Shown: piece after piece, positions 43,635-60,460 of the stretch
Layout of the letters: each line of letters begins with the position of its first letter
Numbering within the stretch: position 1 is the first letter of the stretch
DNA from: Algihabitans albus
GTDB lineage: Bacteria; Pseudomonadota; Alphaproteobacteria; Kiloniellales; DSM-21159
Reading direction: 5' to 3'
DNA: 64,000 nucleotides
NCBI RefSeq assembly: GCF_003572205.1
Contig: NZ_QXNY01000004.1
Coordinates: 310,548 to 374,547 of the forward strand
Program-made: the position numbers and the translations under genes
Notes under the pieces: model-generated
Told to the model about the DNA's origin: nothing
Database searches by the model: none
The model's input: the letters and a program-made list of their open reading frames with translations, nothing else

Positions 43635-43709
43635 GCGGGCGTAGCTCAGGGGTAGAGCACAACCTTGCCAAGGTTGGGGTCGTGAGTTCGAATCTCATCG
43701 CCCGCTCCA
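43635..43709 (+). tRNA. tRNA-Gly (GCC anticodon)
   Basis: A 75-nt cloverleaf: acceptor arm GCGGGCG pairing with CGCCCGC, D-arm GCTCAGGGGTAGAGC, anticodon stem CAACC/GGTTG with loop TTGCCAA (anticodon GCC), T-arm with GTTCGAATC, discriminator T and encoded CCA (43707-43709). Reads GGC and GGU/GGC-type glycine codons. It is the only tRNA seen in the window, and stands in the gap between prdX-like (minus) and the rRNA methyltransferase gene (plus). Confidence 0.97.
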
Positions 43710-56243: not shown

Positions 56244-57371
56244 ATGAGCGACCTGTACGCGACAAGTCAAAGCTATGCCCCCGGCACGTTGGAAGACGTC
56301 GATCGCGCGCTCTCCGAGTTGCGGCGCGGTTGGCCGGTGCTTCTGCATAGCAGCGACGGAGCGGCTCTGTTGGTCTTGGCGGCCGAAGCCGCCAACGACG
56401 AGCGGCTGCGCGCGCTTGATCGTTCCGGTGAGGGCGCGCGCGCCTTGGTATTGACCGGCCCGAGGGCCCAGGCCTTGAGCCTGACGGAAATGGAGGCCGA
56501 GGGGCCTGTCCGTTTGCCGGCCGCCGGTCTTTCGGCCGGCACAATCTCAGCCTTGGCCGATCCGACGGCAATCGCGCGACCGGTGACACCCACGCCGCCT
56601 GCATTGTTGCCGGCCGAAGAGCTGGAAGTCGCTGCCGTCGAACTGGTCAAGCTCGCGCGCTTGCTGCCGGCCGTTCTGGTGGCGGCAGCTCCGGTGACCG
56701 ACGAGCCGGCAGCCTGGGCTGCGAAGAAAGGCTTCCTCAGCGTCACCGCACAGGAGGTCGAGGCCTATCGGACCGCCGCCGCCCATTCCCTAACGAAGGT
56801 GGCCGAAGCGGCGGTTCCGCTGAGCGATGCCGAAGATACGCGTATCCTGGCCTTTCGTCCTGCAGACGGGGGGATCGAACATCTGGCCATCGTCATCGGC
56901 CGGCTCGACACCAGCCAGCCGGTTCTGGTGCGCCTGCATTCGGAGTGCTTTACGGGAGATCTGCTCGGTTCGCTGCGGTGCGACTGCGGCGATCAACTCC
57001 GCGGTGCGATCCAGACGATCGCCGCGGCGGGCTCCGGTGTGCTGCTCTATCTGGCGCAGGAAGGCCGAGGCATCGGACTGGTCAACAAACTGCGTGCCTA
57101 CACCTTGCAGGACCGCGGTGCCGATACGCACGAGGCCAATCTGCAGCTCGGCTTCGATGCCGACGAACGGGTCTATCTGCCGGCGGCGGAAATGCTGCGT
57201 CAACTGGGCGTGCAGCAGGTCCGGCTAATGACCAACAATCCCGAGAAACTGGAGCAGCTCGCACGCTGGGGAATCGCGGTGACGGAGCGGGTACAGCACA
57301 GCTTCCCGTCAAACGGCCACAATGAGGCCTACCTCGCAACCAAGGCCACCAAATTCGGGCACCTGCTGTAG
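56244..57371 (+). CDS. ribA: GTP cyclohydrolase II with degenerate RibB-like N-terminal domain
   Basis: Catalyses the first step of riboflavin synthesis from GTP. The C-terminal half (about 200-375) is a full GTP cyclohydrolase II: Cys235, Cys246 and Cys248 (HSECFTGDLLGSLRCDCGDQL is positions 232-252) bind zinc, and QEGRGIGLVNKLRAY is the catalytic loop. The N-terminal half (1-195) follows the outline of DHBP synthase (RibB), for example ALSELRRGWPVLL and VTAQEVEAYR, but the acidic DxEDRENEGD motif is replaced by HSSDGAALL. It is therefore probably inactive as RibB. ribB, ribD and ribH are not adjacent. Confidence 0.92.
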   Translation: MSDLYATSQSYAPGTLEDVDRALSELRRGWPVLLHSSDGAALLVLAAEAANDERLRALDRSGEGARALVLTGPRAQALSLTEMEAEGPVRLPAAGLSAGTISALADPTAIARPVTPTPPALLPAEELEVAAVELVKLARLLPAVLVAAAPVTDEPAAWAAKKGFLSVTAQEVEAYRTAAAHSLTKVAEAAVPLSDAEDTRILAFRPADGGIEHLAIVIGRLDTSQPVLVRLHSECFTGDLLGSLRCDCGDQLRGAIQTIAAAGSGVLLYLAQEGRGIGLVNKLRAYTLQDRGADTHEANLQLGFDADERVYLPAAEMLRQLGVQQVRLMTNNPEKLEQLARWGIAVTERVQHSFPSNGHNEAYLATKATKFGHLL

Positions 57372-59047: not shown

Positions 59048-59929
59048 CTACTCGACCTTGTCTCGCTTGAGCTCGGCCAGCTCGCGGCGCAGGGCACGGA
59101 GTTCTTCGAAGATACGCTCGCTGTCGGCGGCCCGGGCCCGGTCTTCGGCAGCTGCCGCTTCGTCCGCTTCCGACTGATGCTGACTCTGCATGGCATCGAC
59201 GATGATACCGATGAAAAGATTCAAGACGGTGAAGCTCGTGACCAGAATGAAAGGTACGAAGAAAGCCCAAGCGTAGGGGAAGATCTCCATCACCGGCCGG
59301 ACGATTCCCATCGACCAGGATTCCAGCGTCATGATCTGGAACAGCGAGTAGGCCGAAGCGCCGATGGTGCCGAACCATTCGGGGAAAGCTGCACCGAACA
59401 GCTTCGTCGCCATCACCGAGAAGACGTAGTAGACGAGCGCAAGCAACGCCACGATCGAGCCCATGCCCGGAATCGCCCGCAGAAGCGCCGTAACCACCCG
59501 ACGCATCGACGGCACGGCCGAAATCAGGCGCAGCACACGCAGAATGCGCAGGGCCCGCAGCACCGAGAGATTTCCGGTCGCCGGCATCCAGGCAATGCCG
59601 ATGACGAGAATGTCGAAGATATTCCAGGGATCCTTGTGGATCCGGGTGCGGTAGACGAGGAGCTTGGCCAGGATCTCGATCGTGAAGATCAGCAGCAAGG
59701 TGCGATCGAGTACGATGAGAACTTCACCGACGGCCGCCATCACCCGCTCGCTGGTTTCCAGGCCAAGGGTCACCGCGTTGAGCGCGATCAAAGCGGCGAT
59801 CACCTTCTGCGTGGTCGCGCTTTCGATCAGGCCCTGGAGCCAGCCCAGCCAGCCGCCCTGGCGTGGCGGTATGCGCCGTACGCCATCATCCGGCCTGGTG
59901 CCCTCAGCCGTTTCGTCCTGCGCCGCCAT
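59048..59929 (-). CDS. Voltage-gated sodium channel, NaChBac/NavAb type
   Basis: A 293-residue single-domain ion channel. Six membrane helices (S1 about 42-60, S2 70-93, S3 102-118, S4 121-140, S5 155-180, S6 220-247). The S4 sensor has Arg125, 128, 131 and 134 at every third position. The pore filter reads TLESWSM at 201-207 (59309-59329), the exact selectivity-filter sequence of NavAb, so sodium selectivity is likely. A C-terminal coiled coil (about 269-291, ERIFEELRALRRELAELKRD) should hold the tetramer together. The start is ATG 59929 behind AAGGGGAG; the GTG two codons earlier is too close to that site. Confidence 0.93.
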   Translation of the reverse strand: MAAQDETAEGTRPDDGVRRIPPRQGGWLGWLQGLIESATTQKVIAALIALNAVTLGLETSERVMAAVGEVLIVLDRTLLLIFTIEILAKLLVYRTRIHKDPWNIFDILVIGIAWMPATGNLSVLRALRILRVLRLISAVPSMRRVVTALLRAIPGMGSIVALLALVYYVFSVMATKLFGAAFPEWFGTIGASAYSLFQIMTLESWSMGIVRPVMEIFPYAWAFFVPFILVTSFTVLNLFIGIIVDAMQSQHQSEADEAAAAEDRARAADSERIFEELRALRRELAELKRDKVE

Positions 59930-60295
59930 CGACACTCCCCTTGTTCCGAAGCGATTAGATGCCGCGCCGCAACAAAGGGATCAAGGGGAGGCTGTTCCAG
60001 TTTCCGAGCAGGCTGTCCGATCGTGTCAGCGAGGGGCCGCGTCGGGTTTAGCAAAGACGACCGTCCCTGCTCGAGTCTCTGCCATCCCCCACCGGCGCGC
60101 TTCGCCGATCCCAAGTCGGCAAGCACCGGCGCCATAAATTCTCACAAAAGTAGAATTCAATCGCCTTTTTGTTACCAGGCTTGCTTTGAACTTTGCTGCG
60201 CGCGCCAATACATCCTAAGGGTGTTGGGCCGTCTTGCAGGGGCAGGGTTTGGCGTCTCGCACAGGTTGAAAACCGTGCCAAAAAAGGAGATCGCC
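59930..60295. other. Intergenic region between channel and lipoprotein genes
   Basis: A 366-base gap between the divergent channel (minus) and small lipoprotein (plus) genes. It holds the ribosome site of the channel gene at its left end and, near the right, TTGAAC (60186-60191) and TACATC (60209-60214) spaced by 17 bases, a weak promoter for the lipoprotein. Small open frames here are unsupported. Confidence 0.4.
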
Positions 60296-60460
60296 ATGCA
60301 AGATCGCTCCCCTCAAAGTCGAAGAGTCCGCAGTGCCTGGGCCGGGCCCCTTATTGTGGCCGGTGCTCTATTGTTCGGCCTAACGGCCTGCGAGAGCCTG
60401 CCGCGCGATGACGGTTGGTCGATGTTCGATCGTGAACGGCCATCCCGCGCTGGCTCCTAA
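60296..60460 (+). CDS. Small lipoprotein (54 residues)
   Basis: A short lipoprotein missed by simple length cut-offs. A basic n-region (QSRRVRSAWAG) and hydrophobic h-region end in the lipobox LTAC (Cys32 would be lipidated), leaving about 22 residues in the mature form, ESLPRDDGWSMFDRERP. AAAAAAGGAG six bases before the ATG is an excellent ribosome site. The mature chain is too short for a catalytic role; it resembles entericidin-like small lipoproteins in size, but the sequence is not similar enough to name. A strong stem-loop follows. Confidence 0.72.
   Translation: MQDRSPQSRRVRSAWAGPLIVAGALLFGLTACESLPRDDGWSMFDRERPSRAGS

Follow-up and report, generated by a model that had tools for sequence, protein, structure and literature searches.

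Bacterial sodium channels (BacNav) are known through several well-described members, among them NavAb from Arcobacter butzleri and NavRh, whose filter is TLSSWE. Silicibacter pomeroyi and Ruegeria pomeroyi are synonyms, and a taxonomy lookup places Ruegeria pomeroyi in the class Alphaproteobacteria. According to the available part of one report, NavAb and NavMs, the latter from Magnetococcus marinus, share the selectivity filter LESWSM, and NavSp carried it before mutation (PMC4972137); the available part of another gives Silicibacter pomeroyi as the source of NavSp (PMC4493117). The accessible text of a third describes TLESWxxG as conserved in prokaryotic Na+ channel filters (PMC4225499). A related single-domain voltage-gated channel, CavMr, is a native prokaryotic Ca2+ channel, and its high Ca2+ selectivity requires Gly4 and Val6 in the filter, as stated in the portion available to us (PMC7041947).

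The locus compared here lies in the window, the whole 64,000-nucleotide stretch of Algihabitans albus DNA that was analysed. Its contig (C4) is one of 19 in a genome assembly of 4.68 Mb that is 99.28% complete. The window contains a channel gene with the following features, in which the residues of the filter and S4 come from the NavAb alignment and all sub-gene coordinates are counted from the ATG at 59929:

59048..59929, minus strand: BacNav channel gene, 293 residues plus stop (ORF call, PDB sequence search, Pfam and NavAb alignment)
59528..59557, minus strand: codons of residues 125-134, with the S4 arginines R125, R128, R131 and R134
59309..59329, minus strand: codons of residues 201-207, the selectivity filter TLESWSM
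59051..59113, minus strand: codons of residues 273-293, a C-terminal coiled-coil-like stretch (heptad scan and model helix)

On the coding strand, AAGGGGAG stands 5 bases upstream of this ATG, and an alternative GTG start 6 bases upstream would add two residues, giving 295.

Sequence, predicted fold and filter position agree in supporting the identification as a NavAb-like bacterial sodium channel. Pfam assigns a single Ion_trans domain (PF00520) to residues 43-253 of 293, with an E-value of 2.2e-39 and 135.5 bits against a cut-off of 25, overlapped by a weak PKD_channel match; the genome has no second Ion_trans match at E 0.001. Together with the helices of the predicted model, this span describes one six-helix domain in a protein of the size usual for NavAb-like BacNav channels (about 250-300 residues), as the earlier note had read it. 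The best PDB sequence match is NavAb (5vb2, E 4.9e-81); neither this nor the Pfam score could plausibly arise by chance. Most of the best 60 of 141 PDB matches are titled Ion transport protein, and lower among these 60 are NavAb chimeras and four T-type Ca2+ channels. Counting against the identification, no NCBIfam model matches the channel. An AlphaFold2 model built from 38 sequences has a mean pLDDT of 84.4 and a pTM of 0.63, with the N-terminal 13 residues below a pLDDT of 50. When this model is used as a Foldseek query, the best 50 of 466 rows all belong to structures of NavAb (engineered CavAb among them) and NavMs, with a best E-value of 3.9e-17. TM-scores over the query among these 50 reach only 0.65-0.70, the model being a single chain whose C-terminal helix is long.

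Alignment with NavAb, the check proposed in the earlier note, brings the filter and the S4 arginines onto their counterparts. Of 250 aligned residues 126 are identical, and the share is higher in the pore domain (63 of 95) and in the P-loop (32 of 41). The filter residues T201-M207 align with NavAb T175-M181, all seven residues being equal, and R125, R128, R131 and R134 align with R99, R102, R105 and R108, so that both the filter and the three-residue arginine spacing claimed from the sequence hold. Conserved positions also include N51, the acidic residues E58, E85 and D106, Q198, E203, W205 and the S6 asparagine N237. In an alignment of 38 sequences that includes the query, all four S4 arginines as well as T201, E203, W205 and S206 are invariant, while L202, S204 and M207 are conserved in at least 90%. 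By the terms of the earlier note, a filter lying away from the pore helices would have refuted its reading; alignment and predicted fold instead place TLESWSM between them, the model having helices at 189-200 and 210-216 in the P1 and P2 positions. At the C-terminus, I273, L277, L280, L284 and L287 follow the 4-3-4-3 spacing of a coiled coil, as read from the sequence, and the model forms one continuous helix over residues 221-292.

Overall, the protein resembles NavAb in its single six-helix domain, its four S4 arginines, its identical filter and its helical C-terminus. It differs in about 26 extra N-terminal residues and in having D75 for N49, L229 for F203 and S232 for T206; with aspartate at position 75, the channel might respond over a different voltage range from that of NavAb. 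We consider it very probable that the protein is a canonical NavAb-like, tetrameric, voltage-gated, Na+-selective BacNav, with gating and selectivity judged from family resemblance. By analogy with that family, four copies of the six-helix subunit would form one pore, and depolarisation would move the four S4 arginines outward and open the S6 gate. Sodium would then enter through TLESWSM, where, as in NavAb and NavMs, the ring of E203 side chains would act as a high-field-strength site, and the C-terminal coiled coil would steady the tetramer. Its most likely role would be controlled Na+ entry into a sodium cycle, possibly also serving behaviour; this is a guess, in a genome that encodes an Mrp-type protein.

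Two alternatives concern the nature of the gene itself. A 427-residue plus-strand ORF (59177-60460) overlaps the channel gene, and the channel frame could in principle be decayed or spurious, for instance the antisense of that ORF. This is refuted by the homology of residues 14-289 to solved channels in the PDB sequence search and by the 85 and 89% identity to channels in two further genomes of the same genus; the third-position GC of the channel frame, 0.80, also speaks against it, leaving the idea practically no credence. The second alternative accepts BacNav descent and holds that the channel is non-selective or Ca2+-permeable, like NsvBa or CavMr. In its favour, many channels of the class have a filter that is not TLESWSM (45 of 112 distinct channels in a draw of class genomes), and NavPp mutants in the available part of one report show that the same filter letters can act differently in another backbone (PMC7041947). 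Against it, the filter matches that of NavAb at all seven positions. The third residue is Glu, where NsvBa has Asp in the accessible text (PMC4225499), and serine occupies both positions at which the available portion on CavMr names Gly4 and Val6, so that Ser204 replaces the glycine CavMr needs (PMC7041947). Moreover, in the part of the NavMs report at hand, Na+ and Li+ head the permeability order of that LESWSM channel, although a comparison sign is missing from the text (PMC4972137). We therefore regard a non-selective or Ca2+-permeable channel as very unlikely. Two specific assignments were also tried and rejected: a CavMr-type Ca2+ channel, for which Ser204 stands in place of glycine at filter position 4, and a NavRh-type channel, for which TLESWSM stands in place of TLSSWE.

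A further alternative concerns function within the Na+-selective reading. NaVBP is reported to serve Na+-driven flagellar motility in alkaliphilic Bacillus, and the Algihabitans albus channel could do the same. The genome is compatible with this: it contains flagellin matches, two over the cut-off and one under, three MotB-plug matches and four MotA/ExbB-family matches. Two of the four MotA/ExbB-family proteins were typed: one scores best with the PomA (237.8 bits) and MotP (190.1 bits) models, both under the cut-off, and the other is MotA1, over the cut-off. One MnhB (Mrp) match lies on another contig, and NQR2/RnfD (PF03116) has no match across the genome. The flagellin, stator and MnhB matches make swimming and a sodium cycle possible in this organism. 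A precedent is also known by title (Ito et al. 2004). All flagellar matches, however, lie on contigs other than that of the channel. The earlier note had found no motor genes in the window, and this extends to the whole contig C4 for flagellin, MotA/ExbB and MotB-plug. Across 385 genomes of the class, flagellin occurs in 68 of 107 channel-bearing and 167 of 278 channel-less genomes (odds ratio 1.16, p 0.56, kinship uncorrected; 4 of the 235 flagellin matches are under the Pfam cut-off), leaving 39 of the 107 channel-bearing genomes without a flagellin match. Among the genomes with the closest homologues, 44 of 63 have flagellin (odds ratio 1.59, p 0.12, again uncorrected for kinship), and in G007, a genome of the same family with two channels, no flagellin match was found. 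Because channel and flagellin are not associated across the class, a motility role is weakly supported and in our view rather unlikely here. The motility link mentioned in the earlier note has circumstantial support, from flagellar genes elsewhere in the genome. More generally, the class-wide count speaks against the default reading of such channels as motility genes.

The ordinary Na+ channel that we favour is also a common one. Homologues occur in 41 of 58 genomes in a search of relatives (E <= 1e-10) and in 107 of the 385 genomes of the class draw (E <= 1e-30), its own genome included in both. The filter census of this draw read 113 of 117 matches and merged one exact duplicate to give 112 distinct channels, leaving out the matches in G103, G246, G313 and G273, of which G273 was read separately. 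TLESWSM is the commonest filter there, in 67 of the 112; it also appears in 105 of 112 rows of a first alignment, in which rows are biased towards close homologues (the best 80 of 123 matches) and some sequences are present twice. The nearest named relatives are JANQPZ010000156.1, a Rhodovibrionaceae MAG (89%), and CP030885.1, from Rhodospirillaceae bacterium ECT2AJA-110-B (84%). Both carry the same TLESWSM filter, and the matched stretch of CP030885.1 is identical to that of a same-genus genome (G001). Our literature search found no report on a bacterial sodium channel in Rhodovibrionaceae.

The earlier note had implied that a NavAb-identical filter in an alphaproteobacterium was new, and this part does not survive the comparison. 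NavSp, itself alphaproteobacterial, was already published with LESWSM, so the present channel is a sound identification of an ordinary family member and not new; the likeness to NavSp is by description, not alignment, and draws on the available parts of both sources (PMC4972137, PMC4493117). NavMs entries among the best 50 of 466 Foldseek rows are 52-55% identical to the query, and NCBI taxonomy places their source organism in the class Magnetococcia, unlike the alphaproteobacterial query. By itself, one more sequence for a family with many solved structures has little significance. The channel is useful, however, as a close and unexceptional reference for alphaproteobacterial relatives with changed filters.

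Several records of related channels come from unexpected places. A channel 81% identical to the query is encoded on a contig of 10.5 kb (LSZA01000162.1, locus L034) that is recorded as coming from the cyanobacterium Phormidium willei and is perhaps an alphaproteobacterial contaminant. Relatives of 54-61% identity appear in records named for Thauera (L085, L090 and L102), a Chromatiaceae MAG (L088) and a Desulfuromonadales MAG (L094), organisms outside the Alphaproteobacteria; these suggest between-class transfer or misplaced contigs.

Changed filters were followed across the family in a 'quick' tree of 128 channels built with the filter columns removed, in which 41 of 125 inner branches are open and branches are long; the tree gives NavAb no starred position and does not include CavMr, NavPp, NaChBac, NavRh or NavSp. 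Glycine at filter position 4 is present in 27 of the 128 rows, 19 as TLEGW and 8 with Asp before the glycine, and a pattern search finds TLEGW-type filters in 9 of the 385 class genomes. Scored against TLESWSM rows alone, the Gly4 label needs at least 10 changes on the tree; against all other rows it needs 14, of which 5 are forced by starred branches, and the tree gives no direction of change. A tentative reading, to which we give less than even credence, is that the query's clade is not uniformly one of Na+ channels: TLESWSM and CavMr-like Gly4 filters would have repeatedly replaced each other, and alphaproteobacteria may possess native Ca2+ channels that descend from the NavAb line, and perhaps mixed tetramers. 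If so, the window's channel would serve as the ordinary Na+ member with which its Gly4 relatives are compared.

Individual relatives show the range of filters and arrangements. Two Pseudovibrio genomes contain a tandem BacNav pair on the same strand, the first copy with TLEGWSD and the second with TLESWSM (L110:6001-8107 and L111:6001-8125). The matched stretches within the pairs are separated by 580 and 607 bases, and all four channels group together with an SH-aLRT of 100. Judged by its filter letters, the TLEGWSD copy may be a native Ca2+ channel descended from the NavAb line, next to a Na+ channel. The filter of another alphaproteobacterial channel, L189 (G122:C1:3279100-3280500), is TLEGWVE, which combines the Gly4 and the Val6 of CavMr; in the tree this channel falls in a group with two that carry TLESWSM (SH-aLRT 91, branch not starred). 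TLEGWSD also occurs in L131, the channel of G273 read separately from the census, and TLEGWSE in L125 (G088), which is cut by a contig end; the two are 53-56% identical to the query. Tandem pairs in which both copies carry TLESWSM are found in three genomes of one genus (L155, L156 and L170, from G333, G240 and G410), with the copies on separate branches, and these might form mixed tetramers. A tandem of distant BacNav-like channels (L218, G300), 34% identical to the query, has the filters TLEGWAE and TFDDWIE. In our literature search, the filter strings TLEGWSD and TLEGWSA had no match and TLEGWVD was matched in two papers, with earlier sightings elsewhere possible; the search found nothing on BacNav in Pseudovibrio.

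The surroundings of the gene were considered as a clue to its role and rejected, as conservation of the flanks stops at the nearest relative. Seven of nine tested flanking ORFs have Pfam families, namely alpha/beta hydrolase, GTP cyclohydrolase II, an L,D-transpeptidase domain, PhyH, Ala_racemase_N (YggS-like), 2OG-Fe(II) oxygenase and endonuclease/exonuclease/phosphatase, and two have none. Eight of the nine recur in the MAG locus L032 (JANQPZ010000156.1) and the ninth in no locus, while none of the nine was found at the 79 remaining loci, where flanking sequence is in some cases short (tblastn, E 1e-8). Since the flanking genes are kept only in this nearest relative, there is no conserved operon. 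Between 58400 and 61100, a promoter scan gave no promoter-like site and a terminator scan gave two terminator-like sites against 2.1 expected; Rfam at gathering scores reports only a tRNA at 43635. Among the neighbours, the GTP cyclohydrolase II protein (56244-57371, plus strand) has an N-terminal DHBP-synthase match under the Pfam cut-off (21.2 against 26.4 bits), and this N-terminal part is perhaps a degenerate RibB.
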